44,751 nucleotides of DNA from assembly GCA_903910445.1 (NCBI GenBank), contig CAIVZR010000086.1, positions 1-44,751 of the forward strand, in the 5' to 3' direction. Made by a program: the position numbers and the translations under genes. Numbering within the stretch: position 1 is the stretch's first letter; each line of letters begins with the position of its first letter. This document shows positions 1 through 37,267 of this stretch, in pieces. Below the pieces are notes generated by a model. The model did no database searches and was not told the DNA's origin. It saw only the letters and a program-made list of their open reading frames with translations. The stretch is from an uncultured Bacteroidota bacterium (GTDB lineage: Bacteria; Bacteroidota; Bacteroidia; UKL13-3).

Positions 1-31
1 AAGCTCAACGATAAAAGTCTGACGGGTCTAG

Positions 32-315
32 CTATCCGCACTCGCCAATCGGCTGTATTTCTTTCTTTGTCACTAATGCTACTGCATCAATTGGCAGAAA
101 GAGTGTATCCATTATAAAAGAAAATGGCATATCTACCGATGCGACTAGCCAAGGAGGTGCGGATCTCGTGTCATAAAACGTTGATTTTTAATAACCTGAC
201 CATCACATCTTGCCCCTCCATAGGGGTGGCCAGTTCCTCCTATTATTTTTGCTCCCATACTCATACAACTGGATAGAGTGATTGATATCAAATAAATTAA
301 GCCAAAAGCCTTCAT
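32..315 (-). pseudogene. YceK/YidQ-like small lipoprotein, frameshifted
   Basis: The intact upstream frame (ATG at 315; another ATG at 330) encodes a lipoprotein signal ending in LSSC, then a GHPYGGARCDG segment, and stops at 145-147. A different frame continues with DMPFSFIMDTLFLPID and stops at 32-34. These two halves match the order of conserved parts in the E. coli YceK/YidQ family (a YPGVxxD-like segment, then DLPFSxxxDTLLLPID). One extra base in the A5 run (T5 on the plus strand, 185-189) would join them into a protein of about 98 residues. The family is small outer-envelope lipoproteins of unknown function. Either the gene is broken or the base call is wrong; the sequence alone cannot say which. 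The family assignment is from memory of the motif, not from a search. Confidence 0.7.
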
Positions 316-618: not shown

Positions 619-695
619 TGGCTCCCTGACCTGGGCTCGAACCAGGGACCTAGTGATTAACAGTCACTCGCTCTAACCAGCTGAGCTATCAAGGA
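619..695 (-). tRNA. tRNA-Asn (anticodon GTT)
   Basis: A full cloverleaf on the minus strand. The acceptor strand TCCTTGA pairs with TCAGGGA (one T-G wobble), the discriminator is G, and CCA is encoded (619-621). The D arm reads AGCTCAGCTGGTTAGAGC and the T loop contains GGTTCGAGCC. The anticodon loop CTGTTAA gives anticodon GTT (plus-strand aac at 659-661), which decodes AAC/AAU asparagine codons. A promoter box lies 36 bases upstream and a terminator downstream, so it is a single-gene unit. Confidence 0.97.
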
Positions 696-730
696 AGATA
701 TCGGACCACGTCCGTATTTTTTAAGGAGTG

Positions 731-738
731 CAAAAGTA
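731..738 (-). promoter_or_regulatory. -7 promoter box for tRNA-Asn
   Basis: TACTTTTG on the minus strand fits the Bacteroidota -7 consensus TAnnTTTG. It is 36 bases before the tRNA 5' end. No clear TTG -33 element was seen. Confidence 0.5.
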
Positions 739-761
739 TGAAATAGTCTGAAAATAAAAAA

Positions 762-769
762 TATCTTTG
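762..769 (+). promoter_or_regulatory. -7 promoter box for the PfkB-family kinase
   Basis: TATCTTTG fits TAnnTTTG and ends 13 bases before the ATG at 783, so the 5' leader is only a few bases long. Confidence 0.6.
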
Positions 770-782
770 CAAAAATATTTTT

Positions 783-1691
783 ATGAGTCTATTAAGTATC
801 GGAACCGTCGCTTTCGACGCCATTGAAACGCCTTTTGGCAAAACAGATAAAATAATCGGTGGAGCAGCTACCTATATCTCGCTCTCTGCCTCTTATTTCA
901 CCCAAAACCTGAACCTGGTTGCGGTAGTAGGTGAAGACTTCCCCGCGGAATACATCGCGCTATTGAATTCAAAAGGTATCAATACCGACGGATTGCAAAT
1001 TAAAAAAGGGGAGAAATCCTTTTTCTGGAGTGGCAAATATCATAATGATATGAATGGCCGCGATACTTTAATCACCGAATTAAACGTGCTCGCCGACTTC
1101 GACCCCATTATTCCTGCTTCCTACCAAAACTGTGAATACCTCATGCTGGGTAACCTTACCCCCATGGTTCAGGAAACAGTAATCAACCGCCTTGCCAAAC
1201 GCCCTAAGCTCGTAGTGCTCGATACCATGAACTTCTGGATGGATGTGGCGCTGGAGGATTTAAAACGCGTGTTGACCAAGGTGGATGTGCTCACCATCAA
1301 CGACGAAGAAGCACGCCAGTTAAGTGGTGAATCTAACCTCTTGAAAGCTGCTCGCAAAGTATTGACCATGGGACCTAAAACCCTGATCATTAAAAAGGGG
1401 GAACATGGTGCATTGCTTATCAATGATAATGATAAATTTTACGCTCCCGGTCTTCCATTGGAAGAAGTATTTGATCCAACAGGTGCTGGTGATACGTTTG
1501 CTGGTGGCTTTATTGGCTACCTGGCAAGTACAGGAGATTTGAGTTTCGAGAACATGAAAAGAGCGGTGATCCACGGTTCGGCCATGGCTTCGTTCTGTGT
1601 TGAGAAATTTGGAACAGAGAATTTATTGAACTTGAATAAGCAAATGATTGCCGATCGCGTGGCGGAGTTCTCTAAGTTGGTGAACTTCTAA
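783..1691 (+). CDS. PfkB/ribokinase-family carbohydrate kinase
   Basis: A cytoplasmic ATP-dependent kinase of the ribokinase/PfkB superfamily, 302 residues, the usual length. The N-terminal GGAATYISLSASYF is the substrate-side glycine-rich region. The C-terminal DPTGAGDTFAGGF is PfkB signature 2, with the anion hole and the catalytic Asp in GAGD. The ADP/ATP-side segment TINDEEARQLSG is also typical. The substrate (sugar, nucleoside or other) cannot be read from the sequence. The gene is monocistronic with its own promoter box and runs toward pdxH on the opposite strand; the two stop codons overlap (TAA 1689-1691, TAG on the minus strand at 1688-1690). Confidence 0.9.
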   Translation: MSLLSIGTVAFDAIETPFGKTDKIIGGAATYISLSASYFTQNLNLVAVVGEDFPAEYIALLNSKGINTDGLQIKKGEKSFFWSGKYHNDMNGRDTLITELNVLADFDPIIPASYQNCEYLMLGNLTPMVQETVINRLAKRPKLVVLDTMNFWMDVALEDLKRVLTKVDVLTINDEEARQLSGESNLLKAARKVLTMGPKTLIIKKGEHGALLINDNDKFYAPGLPLEEVFDPTGAGDTFAGGFIGYLASTGDLSFENMKRAVIHGSAMASFCVEKFGTENLLNLNKQMIADRVAEFSKLVNF

Positions 1692-2323
1692 GGAGCCAAA
1701 CGCTCCCGCTTCCATCCTGTAGCTGTTTTGAGGTAGTGTAACCGGTCGTGAAAACGACTTGCTCTGCCTTGCCAAAATTCTATTTCATTCGGAGTTAATA
1801 AATACCCTCCCCAATTTTCAGGAAAAGGCACCTTGCCTCCTTCATATTGTGCCACCAGGCGCTGATGCAAAGATTCCAAGGGTTCCTTGCTTTGAATTAC
1901 CTTGCTTTGTGGTGATATCAAGGCACTCACCTGACTGGTAAAGGGTCGGCTATAGAAATATTTTTCGCTTTCTTCCTTGCTTATTTTTTGAATGGTACCA
2001 TCAATTCGAACCTGACGAGCGAGTTCCAACCAGGAGAAAACCAATGCTGCTTGCGGGTTCTCAGCCATCTCCTGCGCTTTGCGACTTTCATAGTTGGTGA
2101 AAAATACAAAACCTTCGGAGGTGGCTCCTTTCAGTAATACGATGCGTGCCGACGGGCGACCATCTAGGGTGGCTGTTGCCAGGGTCATGGCATTGGGTTC
2201 TGGAACTTCTGCCTGCACCGCTTCTTCAAACCACTGGTGAAACTGCTCCATCGCATCTTCTTTGGCATCCATTTCATTAAAGGGCTTCATCAGGTAATCC
2301 CGACGCATATCCGCTATATTCAT
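1688..2323 (-). CDS. pdxH: pyridoxamine 5'-phosphate oxidase
   Basis: An FMN enzyme that oxidises pyridoxamine or pyridoxine 5'-phosphate to pyridoxal 5'-phosphate, the last step of B6 synthesis and salvage. Recognisable parts are MRRDYLMKPF, PNAMTLATATLDGRPSARIV, GFVFFTNYESRKAQEM (FMN phosphate site), the Q-S stretch ALISPQSKVI, and the C-terminal EFWQGRASRFHDR and WKRERLAP. I chose the ATG at 2323 (MNIADMRRDYLMK, 211 residues), which matches the family N terminus. A TTG at 2374 would add 17 non-conserved residues. Its product feeds PLP enzymes such as glyA in this window, but the genes are not linked. Confidence 0.95.
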   Translation of the reverse strand: MNIADMRRDYLMKPFNEMDAKEDAMEQFHQWFEEAVQAEVPEPNAMTLATATLDGRPSARIVLLKGATSEGFVFFTNYESRKAQEMAENPQAALVFSWLELARQVRIDGTIQKISKEESEKYFYSRPFTSQVSALISPQSKVIQSKEPLESLHQRLVAQYEGGKVPFPENWGGYLLTPNEIEFWQGRASRFHDRLHYLKTATGWKRERLAP

Positions 2324-2351
2324 AATCGATTCAATTTTAAAATTAATTCCC

Positions 2352-2373
2352 TGATTGATCAATTTATCAATCA
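2352..2373 (-). promoter_or_regulatory. 8-bp inverted repeat at the predicted pdxH mRNA 5' end
   Basis: TGATTGAT (2352-2359) and ATCAATCA (2366-2373) form a perfect inverted repeat with a 6-base loop. It starts about where the pdxH transcript should begin (-7 box at 2380-2387). It could be an RNA stem-loop or a protein-binding site; no function is known. Confidence 0.35.
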
Positions 2374-2379
2374 AGGATG

Positions 2380-2387
2380 CAAAGTTA
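2380..2387 (-). promoter_or_regulatory. -7 promoter box for pdxH
   Basis: TAACTTTG on the minus strand fits TAnnTTTG and lies 56 bases before the chosen ATG at 2323. Confidence 0.5.
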
Positions 2388-2410
2388 AAGAGAAAGAAAA
2401 GATGTTTTTA

Positions 2411-2450
2411 AAAAAGAAAAGGCGGTACCCATGCACCGCCTTTTCTTTTT
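2411..2450 (-). terminator. terminator after the 877-904-residue-class surface protein gene
   Basis: A perfect 16-bp stem, 2411-2426 with 2435-2450, core GGCGGT/ACCGCC, loop of 8 bases, and T-rich on both strands. It lies just past the stop at 2465 of the minus-strand surface protein gene and upstream of pdxH. Confidence 0.9.
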
Positions 2451-2464
2451 ATTGTTAGATGAAA

Positions 2465-5176
2465 TTAATTTTTTATAACACGTATAATTTGCGACCCCTT
2501 CTCAGAGCGAATTTTCACGAAATAAATTCCCGCTTCCATCTCTTTCATGTCGATGGAAGATTGGCTGCCATCAACAAATATTGAATGAATCATTCGTCCT
2601 GAGGCATCCATGATTTGTAATTGATGCATTCCATAATCAGGGAATTGTAATTTTAAATAATCGGAAACAGGATTCGGAAATGCCTTCACTTGATAATCGT
2701 AACTAAATTCATTAACACCCGTAGGTAAAACAAACAATACTGCCGACATATTCTTACATCCATTGGCACCTCTTACTTCAACAAAATAATTTCCATGCCC
2801 GTTAATATTCAAACTTTGAGAGGTGGAACCACTAATAGGCAATCCATTTTTATACCATTGGTAGGTGGTGGCGGTTGATGAAGTGAGTACATCTACGTTT
2901 CTTGTAATGGTAGGTACCGCAGGCAATAATTTTTCAACGATAGTAACGGGTGCTGATATTTTAAAGCATGGTCCTTCAGTAATTTTTACCGTATATACTC
3001 CAGGTGCTTTTGCAAAATGAACCGAGGTTATTGCTCCACCAACAGCGTTATTATTTCTATACCATTGGTAAACCAATCCTTGAATATTATTGGTTGAAAG
3101 CTGCGTAGAATCGCCGCTGCAGAAGGTGGTATCGCCTACCGCAATAATTGCTATTGGAGAAGGATTGACTGTTACTTTACGCGTTGCTGATGCAACAGCA
3201 CAAATTCCATTATCAACCATGACATAATAAGTTCCACTATCCTTTATTGCCAATGAATTTTGAGTTGCACCATTGATCGCAACACCATCTTTAAACCATT
3301 TATAAGTGGCTCCTGATGTTGATCCCACTTGATAGGTAACTTGGCTATCACTACAAATTACCGCATTGCCCACTGGAGTGATATTGATATTGGGGGCATT
3401 CGGAATGGTGAGTGTTAAAGCATTCGAAGTAATAGTACAACCAGTGCTATTCGATACTTTCAGGGTATAGGTACCCGATTGTGAAGCGGTCACCTGGGTA
3501 TCCGTTGAATTGAATAGTATTCCATCGCGTGACCATTGATAGGTGTAGTTTCCTGTATTGCGTACTTTTAATTCATAAACACAATTTGCTTTAATGGAGT
3601 CGATGAAGTTGGCAGCCGGAGCAATATTTACCTTGATATTCTTAGGGCCAAAGGTGGCTTTGCAACCGCGGTTTGAAATCAAATCAACGGTATAAGCACC
3701 ACTCACTTTTGCATAATAATTTAGACTGGTCGCACCATTGATACTATTACTATTGCGATACCATTGATAGGTTGCGATGGTATCGGTGGTGGATGCAGTA
3801 AGCTTCAAAGAGTCGCCACTGCAAATACTATCCGATACCGCGGTGATACTACCTGTAGGCTGCGCATTAAATGCAATGGCAAGGGTATTGGAGGTATTAT
3901 CACATCCGGTGGTAGTCCCAATTTTTACATAGTAACTACCTGCAGTTTTTACATATAAACCCGAGTCGCTTGTTTGGGTGAGTAATACATTATTCTTATA
4001 CCAGCTGTAGGTAAGATTATTACCTCCAGGTATTTTCAATCGGATACTATCGCCAATACATCCTACAGTGCCATTTAAAGTAGTAAGGGTAGCATCGGGA
4101 CGAATATTAAAGTTGAGTGTTACTGGGGTGGTAATAACATTACATCCATTGGAGTTGGAAACAATGATACGATAGCTTCCCGATGATTTAGCATAGTATT
4201 GATAGCTAATTGCTCCACTAATATTATTACCATCTTTCTGCCATTGATAAGAATAGGTTGCACTATTGAATACGTTGGCTAATAGGATAGAGTCGCCAGT
4301 GCATAAAGCCTGAGCCGAATTATATACAATACCATTGGAAGGATTACCCAAAATAGTTACTGTTTTTGTAGTGTATGCCGAATTTACAATAGCATTTGCT
4401 ACGCGTAACGAACACACTTTATTTCCAGCAGAAGCAAATTTCACCCATACACTCGACAATGCCGAGGTTGCTGGAGTTCCTCCAGGGAAGGTCCACTGAT
4501 ACGTGAGTGGATTGTTGGTGGCACTTCCTTGGAACAAAATAGAGTCGCCTTGACATACGGTATTGACATTTGTGGTAATGCTCGCCACAGGCACATTCGT
4601 TGTTTGAGGAAAACTAAAACTATTAGTGTGAATTTGATCTCCTGCATTGGTTCCACTATTGTTGGTTGCATTCATTGCAATATATAGATTGGCAGTCCCG
4701 GATAGGGTTGCGGGTGCTTTCCAATTGATATTCCATTCGGTACTATCGGTATATAATGCACTGGTACCTGATGAGGTATGCGTCATGTAATCGCGGGTAC
4801 CCGTGGTGAGTTGAACCTTGGTAGAACCTGATGGAACTTGCAGTGTACCTAACTTTGTTGGAGAGGCGTTACTATTGAGCATGGTGGTAGAGAAACCAAA
4901 TTTCACACAACTTGTTTTTCTTGCCACGATTTTTATTTGATAGATAGAATCGGGGATGTATTCACCATTAGTCATGTTGGTGTATACCGAAATATTAGAA
5001 GACCCGCTTACCACTGATTGCCCTGTATGACAAGAGGTGCAGTTTCCTTCACTAGGAGCTCCAGTTAAACCTGTAGGCGCACCCGAGCCATTGGAGATAG
5101 CTTGCTGCACAATAAATGAGAATGCGGCTACAAATAAAATAGTGATGAATTTAAAAGGAGTAGAAATAGATTGCAT
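2465..5176 (-). CDS. T9SS-exported surface protein: choice-of-anchor V (CxxCH), PKD, 7 Ig-like modules
   Basis: 903 residues. Order: signal peptide (1-28); a domain of the 'choice-of-anchor V'/reelin-like type with GAPSEGNCTSCHTG (CxxCH at 46-50); a PKD-like domain (about 196-280, YQWTFPGGTPAT); seven Ig-like modules of about 75-80 residues, most starting near C-x-G-D-S and containing YQWxxN/DG and SGxYxV; and a C-terminal T9SS type A sorting domain (FPNPVSDYLKLQF ... GIYFVKI, ending IIRVIKN). It should cross the outer membrane by T9SS and be held at or released from the surface. CxxCH is the covalent c-type heme motif; His133 in RDYMTHT is also present in the neighbouring paralogue (His132) and could be an axial ligand (inference). 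The gene has its own promoter box and terminator. Ligand and role are unknown. Confidence 0.85.
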   Translation of the reverse strand: MQSISTPFKFITILFVAAFSFIVQQAISNGSGAPTGLTGAPSEGNCTSCHTGQSVVSGSSNISVYTNMTNGEYIPDSIYQIKIVARKTSCVKFGFSTTMLNSNASPTKLGTLQVPSGSTKVQLTTGTRDYMTHTSSGTSALYTDSTEWNINWKAPATLSGTANLYIAMNATNNSGTNAGDQIHTNSFSFPQTTNVPVASITTNVNTVCQGDSILFQGSATNNPLTYQWTFPGGTPATSALSSVWVKFASAGNKVCSLRVANAIVNSAYTTKTVTILGNPSNGIVYNSAQALCTGDSILLANVFNSATYSYQWQKDGNNISGAISYQYYAKSSGSYRIIVSNSNGCNVITTPVTLNFNIRPDATLTTLNGTVGCIGDSIRLKIPGGNNLTYSWYKNNVLLTQTSDSGLYVKTAGSYYVKIGTTTGCDNTSNTLAIAFNAQPTGSITAVSDSICSGDSLKLTASTTDTIATYQWYRNSNSINGATSLNYYAKVSGAYTVDLISNRGCKATFGPKNIKVNIAPAANFIDSIKANCVYELKVRNTGNYTYQWSRDGILFNSTDTQVTASQSGTYTLKVSNSTGCTITSNALTLTIPNAPNINITPVGNAVICSDSQVTYQVGSTSGATYKWFKDGVAINGATQNSLAIKDSGTYYVMVDNGICAVASATRKVTVNPSPIAIIAVGDTTFCSGDSTQLSTNNIQGLVYQWYRNNNAVGGAITSVHFAKAPGVYTVKITEGPCFKISAPVTIVEKLLPAVPTITRNVDVLTSSTATTYQWYKNGLPISGSTSQSLNINGHGNYFVEVRGANGCKNMSAVLFVLPTGVNEFSYDYQVKAFPNPVSDYLKLQFPDYGMHQLQIMDASGRMIHSIFVDGSQSSIDMKEMEAGIYFVKIRSEKGSQIIRVIKN

Positions 5177-5216
5177 ATAAAAATGGTTCGTTATTGATTT
5201 CGAGTTAATTAAGATT

Positions 5217-5224
5217 CAAAAATA
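5217..5224 (-). promoter_or_regulatory. -7 promoter box for the 903-residue surface protein
   Basis: TATTTTTG on the minus strand, 40 bases before the ATG at 5176. With the terminator at 5371-5406 it suggests that the two tandem paralogues are separate transcription units. Confidence 0.45.
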
Positions 5225-5370
5225 AGAATTATGATTTCCAATTTAGGAGTACGTTATTGTTTTACTGAAAAATGACAAGTGTAATTTGAAAATGCATTGC
5301 CAAATTAATGTAAATAATTGAATGCAAAGTGATGAGTTATTAATGCGTGAAAATAGAAGAGATTTGAATT

Positions 5371-5406
5371 AAAAGAAAGAGGCGAAGTTTAAAGACCCCG
5401 CCTCTT
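5371..5406 (-). terminator. terminator after the 1055-residue surface protein gene
   Basis: An 8-bp stem AAGAGGCG (5377-5384) with CGCCTCTT (5399-5406), loop of 14 bases, followed on the minus strand by a T-rich stretch (5371-5376). It is 20 bases beyond the stop at 5427. Confidence 0.75.
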
Positions 5407-5426
5407 ATCTAATAAAAATAAACCAA

Positions 5427-8400
5427 CTAATTTTTAACCACCCTTAAAATTTGTGAAGCCTTGGATGATGAAACCTTCACAAAATAAATTCCTGATTCCA
5501 TGGCGTTGAAATCTAATATTGCTTTACTATCATTTATTTCAGCAGATAGAATAATTCTTCCAGAAGCATCCAAAATGCTAACGGTATGATTACCAAAATC
5601 AGCAAAGTTCAATTTTAAATAATCGGTTACTGGATTTGGAAATGCGCTTACCAAATTGTTTACCACCTCTGGCTCGATACCTGTAGGAACAACAAAGAGT
5701 CCGGCAGAAATATTTTTACAGCCAGCCCCATTGGTTACTTGAACTGTATAGGTTCCATTTCCAGTCACAGTATAACTTTGAGATGTAGCTCCACTGATTG
5801 CAACACCATTTTTAAACCATTGATAGGTGGTTGCAGTACTTGAAGTTAATACATCTACATTACGAGTGATTACGGGTACTGATGGGAATGGATTTTGCGT
5901 TGTGGTAACCGTGATTGAAGTCTTTGCGCAATTACCTAAGGTAACAATAACATCGTATACACCAGAAACTTTTGGATTGATGGCAGTGCCTGTGCTATTG
6001 CTCAAATTAGCACCATCTTTTCTCCATTGGTAGGTAGCTCCTGAAGTAGGAACCACAGTAATGGTAGCGGAGTCGCCCTGACAGAAACTGGTGTTTGATG
6101 AATTCAATGCAGCACTTGGACTAGGATTCACTTTTACATTTCTTACGGCAGAGGTAACAGCGCAGAAGCTATTGGCGACTTGCACGGTATAATTTCCGCT
6201 ATCGGTAACTACTAATGAATTTTGTGTTGCACCATTTATAATTGTACCATTCTTTAACCACTGGTAGGTGGTGTTTGCCGCAGCAGGCGCCTGGTATTTT
6301 ACACTGCTATCATTACAAATTACAGCATTGGCAGCAGGAGTTACAGATGCGTCAGGCAAAGTTGTTGGAACAGTGAGAACCAAACTATTGGTTATTGCAC
6401 TACAACCTGATGCATTGCTGATTTTTAATGAATAAGTGCCACTTTGAGTAACTACAATTTGCGAATCGGTAGTATTGAATACAATACCATTCTTACGCCA
6501 CTCATAATTAAAATTGCCTGAATTTCTAATCTTCACATTATAGGCACAACCTACTTTAACGGAGTCGATGAAATTTGCAGCTGGAGCAGGGTTTACTTTC
6601 ACGTTGCGAACAGACGAATTCACAATACATGCCCCATTATCCACTGCAACATAATAATTGCCACTATCAACTATCGTTAATGAGTTTTGAGTTGCACCAC
6701 TGATCAGTGTTCCATTTTTATACCACTTATATGAGTTTAATCCCGAAGCGGGTACCTGATAGGTGATACCACTACTATCGCTGCATATTACAGCATTGGC
6801 AACGGGGGTGATAGTCGCATTCGGTGCATTCGAAATATTTAGGAATAATGTATTTGTACTTATACTGCATCCAGATGAATTCGTAATCACAACATTGTAA
6901 AATCCACTGGCTGAAGCAGTAATGACGGTATCGGTAGTATTGATTACATTTCCATTTAGTTTCCATTGAAAATTAAAAGAACCTGTATTTCTAATTTTTA
7001 AAGAATAAATGCAACCCACTTTCGTAGAATCAATAAAATTAGTTGCAGGCAATGAATTCACTTTTACCACTTTGATTGAGGTGCCTCCTGAACATCCTCG
7101 GTTGGAAATTAGATCCACTGTATAAGAGCCAAATTGCGAAGCGAAATAATTCTTGCTTACCGCTCCATTAATCACATTACCATTTCTTCTCCATTGATAA
7201 CTAACGATAGTATCCGATGTTACCGTATTTAATAATACTGAATCGCCTTGACATATACTATCTGTAATAGAGGTTATACTTCCTGTAGGTTTATTATAGA
7301 AAGAAAGATTGAAGCTGTTAGATATGGTATTACATCCAGAAGTAGTAAATACTTTTACATAGTAATTACCCGACGTTTTAGCATAATAATTCGAATCGAG
7401 CGTTTGAACTTGTAAGATATTGTCTTTATAAAAATAGTAGCTATAATTAGTTCCACTATTTGCTTTTAAACGGAGACTATCTCCACTGCAAGAAGATACT
7501 CCTGAAGGAGCTGATAGTGTTGCATTTGGTTTCGTATTAAAGTTCAGAGTAACAGGAGGTGATAGTGCCGAACAACCGGCATTCGTTACCAATACACGAT
7601 ATACCCCTGAAAGCTTTGCCTGGTAAGTATTTCCAGTAGCGCCTGAAATGTTATTTCCATCTTTACTCCATTGATAGGTATTACCACTCACATTAGAAAT
7701 AGTAAGTGGAAGCGAATCGCCATCACATAATACTACAGTACTATTGTATGAAATATTTGCTGCTGGAGAAGGATTTATAGTAACCGATTTGGTGGTATAT
7801 GCCGAATACATAATACTATTGGCCACTCTCAAGGAACATACTTTTGTACCTGCGCTAAATTTCACCCATACACTTTGAGATGTAGATGTAGAAGGCGTTC
7901 CACCGGGGAAAGTCCAGCTATACCCTGTTGTATTATTGGTTCCACTTGCAGTAAATTGAATTGAGTCGTTTTGGCAAATGGTACTTACATTAGTTGTAAT
8001 GGTAGCTACAGGTACGTTGGAGGTTTGAGGCAAGGTGAAATTATTCAAGTTGATTTGATCCCCCGAATTGCTACCACTATTATCCGTAGCGTTCATCGCC
8101 ACATAAATTATAGCATCACCTAATGGAGATGAAGGGGCCACCCAAGTGAATGACCAATCGGTACTATCTGTATAAATGGCCGAACTACCCGAGTACGTAT
8201 GTTTTACATAATCGCGCGAACCCGTTGACAATTGAACATTAGTGGCTGCAGAAGGAATTCCCAAGGTGCCTAATTTTGTAGGTGATGCGCTGGTATTAAG
8301 AACAGTGGTTTCAAATCCAAAACGCACACAACCAGAAGTACGCGCTCTAACTGTGATGATATACGTTGAGTCGGGAATATAAACGCCATTGGTAGCACTA

Positions 8401-8594
8401 GTGAAAACCGAAATATCAGAGGAAGAACTTGTAGGAGTTCCTGAATGACAAGAAGTACAATTACTATCGCCAGGGGCGCCACTCATTCCGTCAGGAGGAC
8501 CTCCACTATAGGAGAGTGCTTGTTGTACAATAAATAAGAGGGCGGAGACAAAAAAGATAGTAATAAACTTGAAAGGAGTAGAAAATTTAATCAT
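5427..8594 (-). CDS. T9SS-exported surface protein: choice-of-anchor V (CxxCH), PKD, 9 Ig-like modules
   Basis: 1055 residues, a tandem paralogue of the gene at 2465-5176. The signal peptide is nearly the same (STPFKFITI ... FIVQQA), then GAPGDSNCTSCHSG with CxxCH at 46-50, a PKD-like domain, nine Ig-like modules and a T9SS type A sorting domain (FPNPVTDYLKLNF ... GIYFVKVSSSKASQILRVVKN, quoted in part). The extra length comes from duplication of modules 4-5 as modules 6-7 (units 7055-6591 and 6590-6126, both 465 bases). Its ATG overlaps the flippase stop in ATGA (8591-8594), so it is probably translationally coupled to that gene. Likely surface-exposed; c-type heme attachment is suggested by the motif but not shown. 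Confidence 0.85.
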   Translation of the reverse strand: MIKFSTPFKFITIFFVSALLFIVQQALSYSGGPPDGMSGAPGDSNCTSCHSGTPTSSSSDISVFTSATNGVYIPDSTYIITVRARTSGCVRFGFETTVLNTSASPTKLGTLGIPSAATNVQLSTGSRDYVKHTYSGSSAIYTDSTDWSFTWVAPSSPLGDAIIYVAMNATDNSGSNSGDQINLNNFTLPQTSNVPVATITTNVSTICQNDSIQFTASGTNNTTGYSWTFPGGTPSTSTSQSVWVKFSAGTKVCSLRVANSIMYSAYTTKSVTINPSPAANISYNSTVVLCDGDSLPLTISNVSGNTYQWSKDGNNISGATGNTYQAKLSGVYRVLVTNAGCSALSPPVTLNFNTKPNATLSAPSGVSSCSGDSLRLKANSGTNYSYYFYKDNILQVQTLDSNYYAKTSGNYYVKVFTTSGCNTISNSFNLSFYNKPTGSITSITDSICQGDSVLLNTVTSDTIVSYQWRRNGNVINGAVSKNYFASQFGSYTVDLISNRGCSGGTSIKVVKVNSLPATNFIDSTKVGCIYSLKIRNTGSFNFQWKLNGNVINTTDTVITASASGFYNVVITNSSGCSISTNTLFLNISNAPNATITPVANAVICSDSSGITYQVPASGLNSYKWYKNGTLISGATQNSLTIVDSGNYYVAVDNGACIVNSSVRNVKVNPAPAANFIDSVKVGCAYNVKIRNSGNFNYEWRKNGIVFNTTDSQIVVTQSGTYSLKISNASGCSAITNSLVLTVPTTLPDASVTPAANAVICNDSSVKYQAPAAANTTYQWLKNGTIINGATQNSLVVTDSGNYTVQVANSFCAVTSAVRNVKVNPSPSAALNSSNTSFCQGDSATITVVPTSGATYQWRKDGANLSNSTGTAINPKVSGVYDVIVTLGNCAKTSITVTTTQNPFPSVPVITRNVDVLTSSTATTYQWFKNGVAISGATSQSYTVTGNGTYTVQVTNGAGCKNISAGLFVVPTGIEPEVVNNLVSAFPNPVTDYLKLNFADFGNHTVSILDASGRIILSAEINDSKAILDFNAMESGIYFVKVSSSKASQILRVVKN
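6126..7055 (-). repeat. tandem duplication of a two-module (155-residue) unit
   Basis: Two adjacent units of exactly 465 bases each. Both begin with a P-A-x-N-F-I-D-S segment, contain a 75-residue Ig-like module without the usual CxGDS, and then an 80-residue module with NAVIC(S/N)DSS and NGATQNSL or SGATQNSL. The paralogue at 2465-5176 has one such unit. The DNA copies have diverged, so the duplication is not recent. Confidence 0.8.
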
Positions 8595-10054
8595 GGGCGA
8601 ACAATTAGTTTTTTGAGATGATGTATTCCAATAACATTCGAATATATGAGAGCCAATATTCCCAAACCCATTTGTAAAATTATTTTTACTATGAAATGAC
8701 AGTCAATTGACAATAAGAAGTAAGGTATTATAATTTGAAGTAACCCAAAGAGTATTAGTTTAATAACTAGCACCTTTTCCAATTTATTACCACCTTGTTG
8801 ATGAACAATTGTATAATGAGAGATGGCCACAAGCGCTTGGGTAATTAGTGACGAAATTGCAGCTCCAATTATTCCCCATAATGGAATTAAAAACAGATTC
8901 AAAATAATATTTAAAAGGCAAGCAAATAATGCCACACGATTCAATATTCTCAACTCACCCTTTGCGGTTAAGTAAGTTCCATAGATATATACGGTACAAG
9001 TGAAAACAAATGAAATCATTAAGAGATAAAGCACCTTTTCAATTTCTGAGTTTCCGCTTTTATTCAGCATCAGTATAATTTCTTTTTGGTAGAAATAACA
9101 AACCGAGACTGCTAATAAAGCTGGAGTAATAATTAGTGTGAAACTTAACTGTAATAATGACTTCGGCGATTCCTTTTGTTGCAAGAGTCGAGAGAAAATG
9201 GGTAATAGCAAACCTGCGAACAGTACAGCAATCATATTGGCAGCATCTAATAATCGATAAGCAGATGCATAATGACCGGCCGCAGTTTTCCCGTCGGGCA
9301 ATAAACGTTCTATCAATACCCCATCAATTTTGGTATATACTCCCATTAAAATTCCTAGCACTGCATAGGGGTAGCTCTTCTTTAGCAGGTGTATCGTAAA
9401 CGCCTTATTCCATTTCCACTTCAAATCGAGAAGATGTGGCTTCAATACGAAAAAGCAAATAATTAATGTAATGGAATACGAAAGGGTTTGGGCATATACA
9501 AACCAATTCAATTGCATCTCTCCAAATACTTTACCCCAAAGTAGCAATGCACAAAACAGGATCATCAATAAACGATCGAGAACAGAGAGTAAACTATCAG
9601 TAATAAAAAACTGCAGCCCCGAAACATTTGTTCTGAGGTACGTGATTGCAAAGGATAAGATTTGATTAAAACACAATACCATCAAAAGCTTAAACTGAAT
9701 AGCATCATATCCAACTAAGAATGCGGCAATAAAGGTCACAACCAAATACACCACCAACAGCAATAACTTAAGCATCACGAGCTGCGCGAATTTTTTGCTT
9801 AGTAATTGCGGGTATTTTGAGATGAAGGTATTATTGTAATTATTGATTCCAAAGTCGAGCACCACATTAAACAGAAAAGAGAAGCTAAACAAGGAGAAAT
9901 AAAATCCATAGGCTTCGGGACCAATGGCATTTTGCACACCACGCTCCACTCCCAAAACCCAAAAAGGTTTTATAAGTAAGTTAATGCCTACTGCAAAAAT
10001 TAAATTAATAATGAAACGACGATTCATATTTTTGAGAACCAGGGCAAAATCCAT
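8591..10054 (-). CDS. oligosaccharide flippase family protein (Wzx/MATE-like)
   Basis: About 487 residues with roughly 12-14 hydrophobic segments and short loops, typical of the polysaccharide transporter branch of the MOP superfamily, which moves lipid-linked glycans across the inner membrane. The N-terminal INLLIKPFWVLGVERGVQN and the following GPEAYGFYFSLFSF, with DFGINNYNN, are characteristic of the family. The start is uncertain: ATG at 10054 (MDFALVLKN) or ATG at 10027 (MNRRFIINL, the more usual family N terminus). A GT4 glycosyltransferase diverges upstream, which fits a role in cell-surface glycan assembly. The stop overlaps the next gene by ATGA. Confidence 0.88.
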   Translation of the reverse strand: MDFALVLKNMNRRFIINLIFAVGINLLIKPFWVLGVERGVQNAIGPEAYGFYFSLFSFSFLFNVVLDFGINNYNNTFISKYPQLLSKKFAQLVMLKLLLLVVYLVVTFIAAFLVGYDAIQFKLLMVLCFNQILSFAITYLRTNVSGLQFFITDSLLSVLDRLLMILFCALLLWGKVFGEMQLNWFVYAQTLSYSITLIICFFVLKPHLLDLKWKWNKAFTIHLLKKSYPYAVLGILMGVYTKIDGVLIERLLPDGKTAAGHYASAYRLLDAANMIAVLFAGLLLPIFSRLLQQKESPKSLLQLSFTLIITPALLAVSVCYFYQKEIILMLNKSGNSEIEKVLYLLMISFVFTCTVYIYGTYLTAKGELRILNRVALFACLLNIILNLFLIPLWGIIGAAISSLITQALVAISHYTIVHQQGGNKLEKVLVIKLILFGLLQIIIPYFLLSIDCHFIVKIILQMGLGILALIYSNVIGIHHLKKLIVRP

Positions 10055-10135
10055 GAACAACAGTTAAACCCTAAGTGATGAATAACTTAAACATCCATCC
10101 ATTCAGATTCAATTATATTAAATACTCGAAAGCGT

Positions 10136-10143
10136 TAACTTTG
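10136..10143 (+). promoter_or_regulatory. -7 promoter box for the GT4 glycosyltransferase
   Basis: TAACTTTG fits TAnnTTTG and ends 20 bases before the ATG at 10164. Confidence 0.6.
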
Positions 10144-10163
10144 CAAATATATCTTTTAGCCTG

Positions 10164-11291
10164 ATGAAGATTGCAGTAAATACCCGTTTCTTAATTCACG
10201 ATAAAATCGAAGGTATCGGACGATTCACTTTAGAATCGCTGAAACGCTTGGTATTGGAGCATCCAGAGCATGAATTTGTTTTTTTCTTCGATCGTCCTTA
10301 CCACCCAGAATTTTTATTCGCCCCCAATGTTTCAGGTATGATTCTGACGCCACCGGCCCGTCATCCGTTGCTTTTTGTTTGGTATTTCGAATGGAGTGTT
10401 ACTCGGGCCTTAAAGGCAGTGCAAGCCGATATGTTTATTAGTTGTGACGGATTTCTGAGCTTACAAACAAGCATCCCACAAATTTCGATTATCCATGATT
10501 TGGCTTTTGAGCATTACCCAGAAGATGTTTCCTACCTGGTTCGAAAATATTATCATTACTATTTCCCTCGTTTCGCCAAGAAGGCTACTCGGATATGTAC
10601 GGTATCAGAATTTTCTAAACAGGATATTTGCCAAACCTATGGAATTAGTCCTTCGAAAATTGACGTAGTATATAACGGCGCCTCCTCCATATTCCATCCT
10701 GCAACAGATGAAATTAAATTAGCAACGAAAGCTAAATACAGCCAGGGTTACGAGTACTTTGTTTATGTCGGTGCTTTGCAACCTCGTAAAAACATTCGCC
10801 GATTATTACTCGCCTTTGATGCATTCAAGTCATCAACAAATTCGGAAACCAGGTTATTGATTGTAGGTCGGAAGGCCTGGAAAACAGAGGATATTGAGGT
10901 TACCTTTGATAACATGAAGCATAAAGTAAGTGTGCTATTCACAGGTCGCATTCCTGACGAAGAACTGGCAAATGTTTTTGGATCGGCTTTGGCGCTTATT
11001 TATGTACCCTATTTGGAGGGTTTTGGAATTCCCATTCTTGAGGCCATGCAATGTGGCACACCCATCATCACAAGTAATATTACAGCCATGCCAGAGGTAG
11101 CAGGGAATGCAGGAATCCTTGTAAATCCGCTTGATATCGACGCCATATCCGATGCTATGAAATCATTGGATAACGATGCCTCACTAAGAACGGAACGCTC
11201 TAAGAACGGATTAATACAAGCTCAAAAATTTAGTTGGGAGAAAACAGCGCATCTTCTTTGGGATAGTATACAAAAGGTATTAAAGCAATAG
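10164..11291 (+). CDS. GT4-family (GT-B fold) glycosyltransferase
   Basis: 375 residues. It transfers a sugar from a nucleotide-sugar donor to a lipid-linked or polysaccharide acceptor on the cytoplasmic face. The C-terminal half contains YVGALQPRKNIRRLLLAF (start of the donor-binding domain), the loop LFTGRIPDEELANVF, and the Glu-x7-Glu motif EGFGIPILEAMQCGTP, all hallmarks of GT4. The N-terminal MKIAVNTRFLIHDKIEGIGRF resembles mannosyltransferase-type GT4 enzymes. Specific donor and acceptor are unknown. It is divergent from the flippase and ends 7 bases before the convergent gene at 11299. Confidence 0.92.
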   Translation: MKIAVNTRFLIHDKIEGIGRFTLESLKRLVLEHPEHEFVFFFDRPYHPEFLFAPNVSGMILTPPARHPLLFVWYFEWSVTRALKAVQADMFISCDGFLSLQTSIPQISIIHDLAFEHYPEDVSYLVRKYYHYYFPRFAKKATRICTVSEFSKQDICQTYGISPSKIDVVYNGASSIFHPATDEIKLATKAKYSQGYEYFVYVGALQPRKNIRRLLLAFDAFKSSTNSETRLLIVGRKAWKTEDIEVTFDNMKHKVSVLFTGRIPDEELANVFGSALALIYVPYLEGFGIPILEAMQCGTPIITSNITAMPEVAGNAGILVNPLDIDAISDAMKSLDNDASLRTERSKNGLIQAQKFSWEKTAHLLWDSIQKVLKQ

Positions 11292-11298
11292 GATTAAC

Positions 11299-12000
11299 TT
11301 AGTGTTGTAGCCTCCAAAACTGCGCCTCCTTTTTAATATAATCGGCCAAATCATAATCACTTACACTAATTAAGTATTCCCAGCTAAGATTAAGACCATC
11401 TATAAATTCTTTATAATGATCTTGAGGCATATCAATAATTCCTTGCTTATTGTAGATATCGAGTAATTGCATAATCAACCGATTCTTTGCCAACTGAAAC
11501 TCATACTCAACAAGCATTTGATGCGTTTGTGATTTTTTACTACTCAGACTATACAAATAGGAAATCGGACTTTGAAGCGCATCCGGCCCATCAAGCGAGA
11601 AGGTATGTTCTACCATCAAGTTATACATATCCTGACGAATATCGCGTTGTGTTCGTACTTGAACAATGCTAACCTCCCTTATCTCTTCACTCAGATGTAA
11701 CATCCTCACTTTTATATTCACAAAATCCTTGTTAGCACCCGAATCTTTAAAACACATAATCTTTACTTTGAAACCATATAGTCCAAATATTAAAGTATCG
11801 GTTGGCTTCACAAAAATGCTAAAACTTCCATCTGCTTTATTTTGAATAATACGTGATGAGTGCTTTACAATGATGGTTACACTATCCAATACGGTATTGC
11901 TATCGGCATCATATACCACTCCTTTAATTTGCACCATTCCTTGCGATTGCAAATTCGTAATAAGTAAAAAGAAGGAACAAATAAGTAGCAGTAAGCGCAT
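11299..12000 (-). CDS. exported protein with carboxypeptidase-regulatory-like domain, function unknown
   Basis: 233 residues. Signal peptide (1-19, ending NLQSQ), then an Ig-like carboxypeptidase-D-regulatory-type domain: IKGVVYDADSNTVLDSVTIIV, quoted from GVVYDADSN, and KADGSFSIFVKPTDTLIFG, about residues 24-100. The C-terminal half is helical and charged and I do not recognise it. This domain is common at the start of TonB-linked receptors, but here there is no barrel. It is last in the operon that starts with glyA (30-base gap after tsaB). Probably periplasmic or attached to the envelope. Confidence 0.7.
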   Translation of the reverse strand: MRLLLLICSFFLLITNLQSQGMVQIKGVVYDADSNTVLDSVTIIVKHSSRIIQNKADGSFSIFVKPTDTLIFGLYGFKVKIMCFKDSGANKDFVNIKVRMLHLSEEIREVSIVQVRTQRDIRQDMYNLMVEHTFSLDGPDALQSPISYLYSLSSKKSQTHQMLVEYEFQLAKNRLIMQLLDIYNKQGIIDMPQDHYKEFIDGLNLSWEYLISVSDYDLADYIKKEAQFWRLQH

Positions 12001-15396: not shown

Positions 15397-18276
15397 CTAT
15401 TTATCGGAGAATTCCAGATTTGTTTCCGTTGTATTCGCACCTTGGGTAAACCGAAGTATATAATTTCCTTTGCTGATATAATAGCTCCCATCTTCGGCTG
15501 GCTTGATAATCACAGGATTTTTGCTTTTAACAGGCAATGGCTTTTGAATACTGAAATTATAGATGGCTGTATTTAAGCCTGCTTCTGCAGTATCTGTCAT
15601 CGATTGAAATACAACCTTCTTTGTTGAATCCAATATTTCAATAGTAACGACTCCTCCTGTCATTGCATAATAACTGAAGGTTACTGATGGACTTGTTTGG
15701 GTTTCATAGGAGTTATTTATTTTACCAAGCCGTTTAGGTAACTGATATTTCTTTTCACTGAACAATTTTAGTGGTGTACCCAAAACCGAGGCATTGAGTT
15801 GTTGTATTAAACTCACATCTCCAATAAAAATACTTCTACCATGTGATCCTACCACCAATTCTTTCTCCCGCTTCTGAATCACCATATCGTGAATCGCTAC
15901 ATTAGGCAAGCTATTATTCCAGCGCATCCAAGAAGTGCCCGAATTCAGGCTAATATAAACACCATAGTCGGTACCTAAATATAATAAATCTTCATTGGCA
16001 GGATCTTCTCTAATTACGTTTACAGGTTCCGATGGTAAATTGCCGGAAATATTTTTCCAGTTAGCACCGTAGTCATCACTCACAAAAACATAGGCATTGA
16101 AATGATCATTCCGATAACCATTCAAAGTAATATATACTCTTGATATTTTATAGCTGGAAGCCACCACACGCGATACCCATAAATTTTGTGGAATGCTTAA
16201 TTGAGTGTATAAATTATTCCCTATTTCTGTCCAGGTACTTCCTGCATTTTGAGTTACTTGTATTTTTCCATCATCACTTCCAGTGTAAATTAAACCAAAT
16301 TGCTTCGGCGATTCATCAATGGTAGTAAGTGTTCCAAAGGCTACATCACCGGGGTGTTTACCCGCTGTTAAATCGCCACTTATGGTTTGCCAAGTTTCGC
16401 CCTTATCCAGGCTTCTGTGTAGTTTATTGCTACCCCAATAAATGATATCTTTACTATTTCTTGAAATAAGAATTGGCGTATTCCAATTCCAACGTAATTT
16501 TTCTTCTCCAATATTTTCAGGAATGCTTAAGTATTTATACTCTCCAGTACTTTTATTGATTCGGAAATAATTTCCAAATTGATAACCTGTGTACACTGTA
16601 TTATTATCACGGGTATCGATCTGCACTTGCATTCCATCACCACCAATCAAAGGTTTGAAATTATAATTGCCTTCTTGGTGCCAGCCACTTCCTTCATCGC
16701 CACCATGCGGACCAGTCCATACGTTATTATCTTGCAAACCTGCATAAACGTTATAGTCCTTGGCATCATCTGTATTTACACTATAGCATTGAGATACGGG
16801 AATACTGTTACATTTTATCCAGTGTGCACCTTCATCATAACTAATATTTACACCCCCATCGTTACCACAAATTAGATGTGATGGATTCGCTGGGTCAATC
16901 CACAAAGCATGAAAGTCGCCGTGCACGTTGTCGCCATCGATATTCTTCCAGGAAGCACCCGCATCCTGGCTTATAAGAATTGGTACTCCAAAAGTGTAGA
17001 TCTTTTTATCATCGGTTGGAGATACAACAACCTGCCCAAAATAATATCCATAGGTATTAAACACACCATCGAGATAGTGTGTATTTTGCTTTTTCCAATG
17101 TTGCCCTCCATCAATACTCTGATAAATCTCAGCTCCAATAACTGGGGTGCGGAATAAAAGCGTGTTTGCATCATCGGTATATGCTACAATATCGCGTACA
17201 GTAATTTTATCATTGCGTACCATTTCTTTTAAAACCCCTGCACTATACTTCTCTGGAAAATCCTTAGAGCTCAAATAATCACTGAGCTTTTTGTCTTCAA
17301 GTTTCAAGAAATCGTCTTTCGTTAATTTTTCTAATTGTTCGGCGGTAAGCTCCTCACTCTTTTGAGTACTTGTATCAATTCTATGATTTTGATTATCAAT
17401 CACACAATAAAGAATCGATGAATTTTGATTAGAAACCGCCACCCCACTTCTGCCAAAGCCATCACCTTCTGGCAATCCATTGATAGCACCTGAGATTTTA
17501 ATCCAGGTATCACCCCCATCATAACTTTTATAGATGCCACTTGTTTTTCCGCTCTCTTCAAAATTCCAAGCTCGGCGCGTGCGATACCACATATTGGCGT
17601 ATAAAGTTCTGTTATTTGTTGGGTCAATTTGTAATTGTACACAACCCGTATTCTCATCAACATACAATGTTTTGATCCAGTTTTTACCTCCATCTTTCGT
17701 CTTGTATACACCACGCTCAGAATTTGGAGTATACAAGTGACCTAAAACCGCCACCCATGCAATATTGGGGTCGGTAGGGTGTAAAATAATTTTACCAATA
17801 TGATGGCTCTCTGGCAGGCCGATATTCTTCCAGGTTTTTCCTGCATCATTACTTTTAAAAACACCTACGCCACTGTATGATGAACGCGATGAATTTACTT
17901 CACCCGTACCAACCCATATTTCGTGAATCTTATTTTCGTTCCAACGCACTGCAATTGCTCCTATCGTCATTACCGCTTCATGATCGAAGATGGGAGTAAA
18001 TGATTGCCCATTATTGTGTGTGTACCACAAACCTCCACTAGCGAATGCAACGTAAAATTCAATACTGTTTACTGGGTTTACAGCAATATCCACTACTCGC
18101 CCGCTCATGATACGAGGACCAATATTTTTGAATGGGATATTATTTACAACAGAAATTCTATTCAACCAATCGCGTTGGTTTACCGCCTTCCATCGATCTT
18201 GAGAAGAAGTTGGGGTGGGTTGTGCAAATACATGCAGTGAAAGAAAAATTAGTAGAGTAGGTAATAATTTGTGCAT
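15397..18276 (-). CDS. secreted VPS10/sortilin-like BNR-repeat protein
   Basis: 959 residues from the ATG at 18276, which gives a normal signal peptide (MHKLLPTLLIFLSLHVFAQ); the longer frame to 18327 adds 17 residues without signal character. It is built of two beta-propeller-like blocks with ten Asp-box motifs of the S-x-D-x-G-x-x-W type, for example SNDAGKTW, TKDGGKNW, SYDGGDTW, SLDKGETW and SDDYGANW. A coiled-coil-like charged insert (about residues 300-360) splits them. No sialidase catalytic set and no T9SS tail were seen, so it may stay in the periplasm or leave by another route. Proteins of this type are often called glycosyl hydrolases, but activity is not supported here. Confidence 0.85.
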   Translation of the reverse strand: MHKLLPTLLIFLSLHVFAQPTPTSSQDRWKAVNQRDWLNRISVVNNIPFKNIGPRIMSGRVVDIAVNPVNSIEFYVAFASGGLWYTHNNGQSFTPIFDHEAVMTIGAIAVRWNENKIHEIWVGTGEVNSSRSSYSGVGVFKSNDAGKTWKNIGLPESHHIGKIILHPTDPNIAWVAVLGHLYTPNSERGVYKTKDGGKNWIKTLYVDENTGCVQLQIDPTNNRTLYANMWYRTRRAWNFEESGKTSGIYKSYDGGDTWIKISGAINGLPEGDGFGRSGVAVSNQNSSILYCVIDNQNHRIDTSTQKSEELTAEQLEKLTKDDFLKLEDKKLSDYLSSKDFPEKYSAGVLKEMVRNDKITVRDIVAYTDDANTLLFRTPVIGAEIYQSIDGGQHWKKQNTHYLDGVFNTYGYYFGQVVVSPTDDKKIYTFGVPILISQDAGASWKNIDGDNVHGDFHALWIDPANPSHLICGNDGGVNISYDEGAHWIKCNSIPVSQCYSVNTDDAKDYNVYAGLQDNNVWTGPHGGDEGSGWHQEGNYNFKPLIGGDGMQVQIDTRDNNTVYTGYQFGNYFRINKSTGEYKYLSIPENIGEEKLRWNWNTPILISRNSKDIIYWGSNKLHRSLDKGETWQTISGDLTAGKHPGDVAFGTLTTIDESPKQFGLIYTGSDDGKIQVTQNAGSTWTEIGNNLYTQLSIPQNLWVSRVVASSYKISRVYITLNGYRNDHFNAYVFVSDDYGANWKNISGNLPSEPVNVIREDPANEDLLYLGTDYGVYISLNSGTSWMRWNNSLPNVAIHDMVIQKREKELVVGSHGRSIFIGDVSLIQQLNASVLGTPLKLFSEKKYQLPKRLGKINNSYETQTSPSVTFSYYAMTGGVVTIEILDSTKKVVFQSMTDTAEAGLNTAIYNFSIQKPLPVKSKNPVIIKPAEDGSYYISKGNYILRFTQGANTTETNLEFSDK

Positions 18277-18390
18277 CGTGATGCAAAGCAAGGAAAAAAG
18301 AGGTTCGCTTGCAAAAAAAATACACACGAAAAATAGATGTAAAATATGGAACTATTAAGGAATCCAAGAGTCATCGCAAAACCTTATTCA

Positions 18391-36499: not shown

Positions 36500-37267
36500 T
36501 TATTTTTCTTTTGCGGCGTCTTTATTATTCTTCGTAATAAAAATTTCAAGTGCCATACTCATACTTGGGCATTCGGGTGTAGGAGCATTTACAGTTACAT
36601 TCAATTTAACATCCTTGGCTGCCTTGGCAGTAGCTTCCCCAAAAGTTGCGATAACAGTATCTGCTTGTTTGAATTTAGGGAAATTATCTTTCACCGATTT
36701 AACAGCAGCAGCACTAAAGAAAGCAATCAGGTCGTAATCATTCAAGTTCATAGCTTTCAAATCGGCCGACTTGGTGTAACATACTACACCTTCCTTAAAC
36801 TTAATTTTATTTTTCTTTAAAAAATTGGGGACCTCTGGCTTTCTTAAATCGCTGCACAGGTATAAGTAATTCTCATCCGAATGTGCTTTCAATACCGATA
36901 GCATATCCTTCTCGGTAGATTTACCATAGAATACTTTGCGCTTACGAAGCTGAATATATTTTTGAATATAGAGTGCAGTTCCTTCATTCACACAGAAATA
37001 TTTCATTTCTGGAGGCATCTCCAATCGTAATTCCTTAATAAGATTAAAGAACAAATCGACCATATTTTTAGAATTAAAAATGATGGCAGTATGTTGCAAT
37101 ATGCTTATTTTTTCCTGACGAAACTCCTTCGACGTGTAGGGAACTATTTCAGTGAAGCTTTTAAAATCCAATTGCAACTTCAGCTTTTTAGCCAAGTCGA
37201 AATACGGAGATTTATCAGTTTCGGGTTTGGGTTGGGTAATGAGTACACGTTTTACTTTCAATGCCAC
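36500..37267 (-). CDS. hemD: uroporphyrinogen-III synthase
   Basis: 255 residues. Closes hydroxymethylbilane to uroporphyrinogen III in heme and corrin synthesis. The family is poorly conserved in sequence; visible are RVLITQPKPET at the N terminus, AIIFNSKNMVDLFF and YLYLCSDLRKPEVP in the middle, and DLIAFFSAAAVKSVKDNF plus IATFGEATAKAAKD in the C-terminal domain, in the order typical of Bacteroidota HemD. It is third in a minus-strand operon after DUF4271 (gap of 7 bases), a neighbourhood common in this phylum. The C terminus is Lys-rich. Confidence 0.88.
   Translation of the reverse strand: MALKVKRVLITQPKPETDKSPYFDLAKKLKLQLDFKSFTEIVPYTSKEFRQEKISILQHTAIIFNSKNMVDLFFNLIKELRLEMPPEMKYFCVNEGTALYIQKYIQLRKRKVFYGKSTEKDMLSVLKAHSDENYLYLCSDLRKPEVPNFLKKNKIKFKEGVVCYTKSADLKAMNLNDYDLIAFFSAAAVKSVKDNFPKFKQADTVIATFGEATAKAAKDVKLNVTVNAPTPECPSMSMALEIFITKNNKDAAKEK

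Follow-up and report, generated by a model that had tools for sequence, protein, structure and literature searches.

Tandem type IX-secreted proteins of an uncultured Bacteroidota bacterium as probable surface c-type cytochromes on a Reeler-like fold

The 44,751-nucleotide contig CAIVZR010000086.1 of an uncultured Bacteroidota bacterium (assembly GCA_903910445.1), which we call the window at its full length, encodes two tandem proteins that each join a choice-of-anchor V domain (family NF041895; V domain in the following) with one CTSCH motif to a long stalk and a C-terminal sorting signal of the type IX secretion system (T9SS). We propose that both are surface monoheme c-type cytochromes on a fold resembling the Reeler domain and cytochrome f, a kind not previously recognized, and give this reading a probability of roughly 0.7. 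While c-type cytochromes themselves are known, we rate as new that one should be built on a fold so far not recognized as heme-bearing. The evidence comes from the conservation of the motif across the family, from V genes of relatives that lie among genes for cytochrome c maturation, and from predicted structures. The features of the two genes are as follows:

2465..5176, minus strand: gene 1, 903 amino acids (aa); a hydrophobic N-terminus that by eye is a signal peptide, then the V (Reeler-like) domain carrying CTSCH, a PKD/Ig-like array and a T9SS type A tail
4616..5119, minus strand: choice-of-anchor V / Reeler-like domain, residues 20-187 of gene 1 (NF041895, 86.3 bits; curated cut-off 42)
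5027..5041, minus strand: CTSCH, residues 46-50 of gene 1, predicted heme c attachment site (sequence and family conservation)
4778..4780, minus strand: His133 of gene 1, a family position that is mostly His, otherwise Gln or Tyr (sequence and family alignment)
2687..4591 (limits approximate), minus strand: PKD and Ig-like (Ig_7) stalk of gene 1 (Pfam)
2468..2680, minus strand: T9SS type A sorting domain, residues 833-903 of gene 1 (TIGR04183, E 2.3e-13)
5427..8594, minus strand: gene 2, 1055 aa; same architecture as gene 1
8040..8540, minus strand: choice-of-anchor V / Reeler-like domain, residues 19-185 of gene 2 (NF041895, 92.8 bits; curated cut-off 42; AlphaFold model)
8445..8459, minus strand: CTSCH, residues 46-50 of gene 2, predicted heme c attachment site (sequence and family conservation)
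8199..8201, minus strand: His132 of gene 2, the same family position (sequence and family alignment)
5670..8012 (limits approximate), minus strand: PKD and Ig-like (Ig_7) stalk of gene 2 (Pfam)
5430..5642, minus strand: T9SS type A sorting domain, residues 985-1055 of gene 2 (TIGR04183, E 6.6e-11)

An original prediction, made from the letters of the window, had described tandem surface proteins with one CTSCH each, a choice-of-anchor V domain, PKD and Ig-like arrays and a T9SS type A tail. Both open reading frames (ORFs) were recovered at its coordinates with the motif starting at residue 46, and NF041895, Pfam and TIGR04183 all match in both proteins. The histidine of an RDYxxHT sequence is indeed common to the two (residue 133 in gene 1, 132 in gene 2), which are 53% identical across residues 1-801 and 1-806, respectively. 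Their tails score above the cut-offs of TIGR04183 (49.9 and 42.0 bits for genes 1 and 2; cut-off 23) and PF18962 (41.1 and 41.5 bits; cut-off 27), and the outward display on a long stalk that had been envisaged is compatible with such a tail.

Whether the motif is kept by the family was judged from 174 loci obtained through whole-genome NF041895 searches, taken among the matches listed (at least that many exist). Our own search profile, which had C-x(1-3)-CH sequences as its seed while the loci themselves came from NF041895 matches, finds the domain in 169 of them and recovers all 169 fetched loci above the NF041895 cut-off; the other five (L053-L056 and L059) are hits below the curated cut-off in which it finds no V domain, and they were dropped. 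Removal of redundancy left 171 rows, of which 168 cover the motif; three domain fragments without it were excluded from the motif counts, and one further row lacks the column of His133 (n = 167 there). Some of the 73 named loci examined for genomic context had been recruited with a CTSC pattern, and we therefore count spacings only in the profile-recruited set.

The second cysteine and the histidine that follows it are invariant in all 168 non-redundant V domains, so that the motif is no chance occurrence. In an enlarged set of 257 rows (180 clusters at 60% identity) the Cys-His pair is likewise present in 257/257, and the Asp of a GD loop in 245. A preceding cysteine stands at a gap of up to five residues in 166 of the 168 domains and at a gap of six in the other two; the spacing, counted in residues between the cysteines, is one in 59 domains, two in 64, three in 5, four in 37, five in 1 and six in 2. 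Lack of CxxCH conservation in the family, which had been named as grounds for refutation, thus does not refute the heme prediction, but the strict spacing is not kept: the family rule is C-x(1-4)-CH, and the canonical form occurs in about two fifths of the domains. A search of viral contigs gave 38 pattern matches with no relative among them.

Genomic context was examined around the V genes of the 73 named loci and three loci from the window's own genome. Among 549 surrounding ORFs of at least 100 aa, 32 contain CxxCH (one of these, in L209, is itself a V protein), compared to none with the control pattern CxxHC and two with HxxCC. With ORFs of at least 80 aa, CxxCH is found in 8 of the 49 immediate upstream neighbors on the same strand vs 21 of 510 other ORFs (Fisher p 0.002), though the eight form about three homologous groups by eye and hence do not count as independent of each other; a diheme lipoprotein with C-x4-CH and C-x2-CH makes up one of these groups. 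Downstream, 2 of 23 neighbors carry the motif, one of which (L225) is a truncated V copy.

In three Acidobacteriota loci (L218, L220 and L226), the V gene is flanked by a ResB gene 19-22 bp upstream and a CcsA gene 78-91 bp downstream. Together, ResB and CcsA are the cytochrome c synthase of System II. ResB was called by PF05140 (E 1.6e-61 to 5.6e-66), and CcsA was called by PF01578 in L218 (E 8.3e-37) and L226 (E 3.6e-37) and by phmmer to the L218 protein in L220; TIGR03144 scores 187.5 bits for CcsA of L218, just below its cut-off of 187.6, and 192.0 for that of L226, above it. A fourth locus, L212, has ResB upstream of the V gene and no adjacent CcsA, and the ResB link thus occurs in four of eight loci titled Acidobacteriota, Acidobacteria, Pyrinomonadaceae or Chloracidobacterium. 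The placement of a V gene inside a ResB-CcsA operon is to us the strongest single indication that the domain would receive heme c, though it comes from few, related genomes. The left flanks of L218, L220 and L226 also hold opposite-strand ORF clusters with nine and three to six CxxCH motifs, some of them C-x3-CH, beside the ResB-V-CcsA genes.

The V domain appears to be a bacterial beta sandwich of the Reeler fold. A family profile (A1) built from 28 diverse V sequences has its only significant match in the PDB to the Reeler domain of F-spondin, whose entries include 2zot, 2zou and 3coo (three Spondin-1 sequences, E 6.7e-6 to 1.1e-5), with GF, GT and W-x-AP residues in common; the aligned F-spondin region begins past the motif, and a Glu stands there at the variable His position of the V domains. 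Profile matches to heme c proteins in the PDB (E 0.02 to 5) reflect the motif only, and when the gene 1 domain was searched against the PDB as a single sequence, residues 1-189 had one chance match and another stretch had none. The Pfam Reeler family PF02014 matches 8 of the 28 domains at E up to 10 (best 3.5e-6) and, at E 1e-3, 15 of 70 full V proteins, i.e., both window proteins plus 68 taken from a list. Its curated cut-off of 21 is passed by L274 (21.4), the only such V protein noted, while the Pfam scan matches neither window protein at E up to 1, so that they do not count as PF02014 members by score. Membership of the window proteins lies with NF041895; 37 of the 70 scanned V proteins also match NF041894 (the MXAN_6652 family) at E 1e-3, and the one-line descriptions of both families give a domain or anchor and name no function.

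An AlphaFold model of gene 2 residues 28-200 (pLDDT 87.7, pTM 0.85) has a short helix at the motif, and Foldseek places the F-spondin Reeler domain 2zot_C first (E 1.3e-7). A structural second look, in which we treat rows differing by Z of 1 or less as tied, again puts this domain at the top (Z 12.9, 2.9 Å, 129 residues), and cytochrome f takes ranks 4 to 16 (13 rows, Z 10.5 to 9.6, 139-152 residues, 3.2-4.5 Å) with alignments that start at model residue 1 or 7, from 2jxm_B (Z 10.5, 3.2 Å, 144 residues, model 1..168) down to 6rqf_C (Z 9.6). Below it follow YcnI (Z 9.4, 2.6 Å, 111 residues, from residue 33), integrin (9.1) and cohesin (9.0), whose alignments begin at model residues 25-34 and omit the motif end. 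A second model, of the L218 domain (pLDDT 89.4; 35% identity to the gene 2 domain), was built from an alignment largely in common with the first; it again has Reeler as its best match, with Z 11.8 to 11.1 for Reeler and 11.1 to 9.8 for cytochrome f (3.2-3.7 Å; best 1q90_A with Z 11.1, 3.3 Å, 147 residues, model 6..166), and integrin and cohesin reach Z 10.3 over a shorter range from model residue 29.

Like the V domain, the large domain of cytochrome f is an all-beta sandwich with CxxCH before the first strands, and the two align over nearly the whole model. The motif lies at residues 21-25 in the cytochrome f sequence and 19-23 in the gene 2 model, and the N-terminal segment with Cys-x-x-Cys-His would thus be placed as in cytochrome f. 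Unlike cytochrome f, V domains vary in their cysteine gap from 1 to 4, have no detectable sequence homology to it and, at ca. 150 residues, hold no equivalent of its small domain.

The motif histidine would serve as the proximal heme ligand. For the distal side, the original prediction had proposed His133/His132, which is not supported as a rule for the whole family. Of 167 profile-recruited domains, 142 have His at this position, 20 have Gln and 5 have Tyr; among the 257 rows of the enlarged set it is His in 205, Gln in 45, Tyr in 5, Arg in 1 and Ser in 1. The 45 Gln domains conserve no His, Met or Lys that could replace it, apart from a Lys in 14 of them that His rows also have, and three of the four ResB-linked copies (L212, L218 and L226) carry Gln at the position, with His in L220. 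This variation argues against an obligatory distal ligand, and a pocket residue is the more likely role as judged from the alignment; exchange of His and Gln is the behavior of distal pocket residues in globins. By analogy, the sixth heme position could possibly be taken by an N-terminal amine, as the amine of Tyr1 does in cytochrome f, or stay an open site. The c-type heme itself that had been predicted finds indirect support in the invariant Cys-His with its first cysteine, in the predicted fold with the motif at the cytochrome f end and in relatives some of which are encoded between ResB and CcsA or downstream of cytochrome c genes, whereas the distal histidine that went with it does not.

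Several results weigh against the presence of heme. One-spaced Cys-x-Cys-His accounts for 59 of the 168 domains, and we know of no proven heme c protein with this spacing. The window genes have no cytochrome neighbor, and no further C-x(1-4)-CH ORF of at least 80 aa in the window is credible (we do not count as credible one CRCH in a 136-aa frame overlapping the PcrB gene). Most V genes lack a heme-related neighbor altogether: 41 of the 49 upstream neighbors are without CxxCH, the ResB-linked loci are only four of eight with Acidobacteriota titles and probably from related lineages, and eight further V copies of those genomes (L266-L273) show neither a ResB link nor another CxxCH ORF. Across 19 loci shown whole (L266-L273 and L275-L285; L274 was only partly seen in the locus comparison and is left out), another CxxCH ORF occurs only in L283, where it is doubtful with 97 aa and overlap with the V gene. 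Co-occurrence with cytochrome c assembly genes was rejected as evidence because PF01578 is present in 391 of 395 Bacteroidota genomes and is therefore uninformative; the four genomes without it (G230, G260, G327 and G346) are outside the 108 V-matching genomes, which says little. As to structure, the tie rule leaves cytochrome f close to YcnI for the gene 2 model and to integrin and cohesin for the L218 model, and the Foldseek top 50 contain no cytochrome f for either model. Comparison by hhalign with six cytochrome f sequences finds no homology, with a probability of 5.5% for C-x2-CH domains (a random 110 of 148) and 0.1% for the 59 C-x-CH domains. The likeness to cytochrome f is thus one of predicted structure, and the models point to a common arrangement of the two domains and not to proven descent.

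In a version without any cofactor, a disulfide between the two cysteines would tether the N-terminal segment to the sandwich, and the domain would be only an adhesion or spacer module like the animal Reeler proteins. Such a bond tolerates all gaps of 1 to 4 residues, the domain shares its fold with F-spondin Reeler, the rest of the proteins are Ig/PKD stalks, and the scarcity of heme-related neighbors would be expected. However, a disulfide leaves unexplained why a histidine invariably follows the second cysteine, as well as the ResB-CcsA placement and the position behind cytochrome c genes in some lineages, and we consider it improbable. Still less probable, at the margin of what we would entertain, is a mononuclear copper, zinc or iron site made from the motif cysteines, the motif His and the variable His/Gln/Tyr residue. 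His, Tyr and less often Gln can indeed serve at metal sites, and a copper protein, YcnI, ranks among the closest folds, but its alignment excludes the motif, a variable cysteine gap is awkward for a fixed metal geometry, and the operon partners tested are a heme c synthase and cytochromes.

Two other explanations keep the heme. With His133/His132 as second axial ligand, the proteins would be bis-His, low-spin pure electron carriers; both window proteins and the majority of domains have this His, yet the 25 Gln or Tyr domains, the Gln in most ResB-linked copies and the lack of a conserved substitute ligand speak against it, and we regard it as doubtful though worth keeping in mind. About equally tentative is a mixed family, in which members with C-x2-CH and C-x4-CH carry heme while those with C-x-CH have lost it and keep a remodeled site. 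In cytochrome-like settings, the other ORFs near V genes have C-x2-CH, C-x3-CH and C-x4-CH but no C-x-CH, and five C-x-CH loci (L279-L282 and L285) have no other CxxCH ORF nearby. Against such a loss, the C-x-CH members retain the proximal His in 59/59 cases and have His (51) or Gln (8) at the other position, and in L283, a C-x-CH locus, a lipoprotein gene with C-x4-CH lies ca. 1.6 kb upstream.

If the two proteins are surface cytochromes as we propose, their N-termini suggest that they would be exported via Sec, and heme would then be attached to the motif through thioether bonds in the periplasm. The window's genome has Ccm genes on contig C25, i.e., CcmE and two PF01578 proteins of 230 and 815 aa, which we take to be the sizes of CcmC and CcmF, respectively; since ResB has no match in this genome, System I would perform the attachment. 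The folded protein would leave through the T9SS pore SprA and be anchored by its type A tail, possibly with its heme in place. This genome indeed encodes SprA (SprA_N PF14349, E 4.9e-160; the T9SS search covered SprA only), and both proteins share Por_Secre_tail, an Ig/PKD stalk and a genomic SprA with other T9SS type A cargo, from which they differ in the covalently bound heme that we predict. Displayed on the stalk at the cell surface, the heme may pass or buffer single electrons or bind a small ligand.

Of 395 Bacteroidota genomes sampled, 104 have an NF041895 match above the cut-off, and a literature search for "choice-of-anchor V" found no publication. Neither did the matches listed include such a cytochrome in searches on Reeler with heme or bacteria, on cytochrome f with Reeler, immunoglobulin or ligand, on CXCH, on CX3CH/CX4CH or on MXAN_6652/choice-of-anchor/MYXO-CTERM, nor such a protein in those on type IX secretion with c-type cytochromes. 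One pipeline's description includes CXCH among its heme motif patterns (PMC11218250), and CX3CH and CX4CH are handled as heme motifs in another paper (PMC10734462).

Our reading turns an anonymous domain into a testable cytochrome and possibly links a heme domain to the animal Reeler fold; if it is true, proteins loaded with heme may reach the cell surface through T9SS export. Cysteine gaps of 1 to 4 on one fold would moreover offer a natural series for probing the limits of cytochrome c maturation. A more far-reaching view, which we advance only as a speculation with the odds against it, is that the V family could be a second class of all-beta c-type cytochromes besides cytochrome f, surface-displayed in Bacteroidota and Acidobacteriota and including a natural Cys-x-Cys-His heme site, and that animal Reeler domains (reelin, F-spondin and the ferric reductase SDR2/FRRS1) could be its heme-free relatives.

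In the window, the gene pair is flanked by a polysaccharide biosynthesis (flippase-like) gene and a pyridoxamine phosphate oxidase gene. The assembly of isolate ZH-15may19-286 preserves both the pair and its flanks, with two contigs that match window positions 621-6947 (88.5%) and 6941-12000 (85.8%). Six V domains are found in the window's genome. Among their genes are another tandem pair of short V proteins of ca. 250 aa each on contig C24 (L263:1840-3509) and a third long V gene on contig C90 with a diheme lipoprotein gene (C-x4-CH and C-x2-CH) 24 bp upstream of it (L264:4898-5576). Two V genes per locus also occur in L179, L182, L193 and L223, and the V match of L158 contains two internal TAA stops and is probably a decaying copy.

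Among the 70 scanned V proteins, 43 have a T9SS tail and 12 have FG-GAP repeats, and L274-L277 encode short forms of ca. 200 aa with little beyond the V domain. Short stand-alone V genes (about 197-201 aa) adjoin a beta-propeller gene of the Vgb_lyase family (PF24684) at L275:3696-4700, L276:6139-7152 and L277:6165-7166, and L274 has a similar beta-propeller neighbor as judged from its N-terminus only. Two upstream neighbors of V genes recur in six loci each, namely a protein with SDQEVRWCPGCGDYSILKQVQ that by eye resembles a 2-oxoacid oxidoreductase subunit (L204, L206, L215, L217, L231 and L236) and an SDR-like dehydrogenase, also by eye (L179, L182, L187, L194, L198 and L205).

Elsewhere in the window, the hemD gene that had been predicted is present at 36500-37267 (PF02602), and the putative hemW at 39983-41107 encodes a radical SAM protein (PF04055), the level to which this assignment was tested. 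Two further large proteins are encoded, one of 976 aa with Sortilin-Vps10 and BNR repeats (15397-18327) and one of 1833 aa with an IgGFc-binding domain, PKD and a CHU_C T9SS signal, i.e., a further large surface protein (21696-27197).

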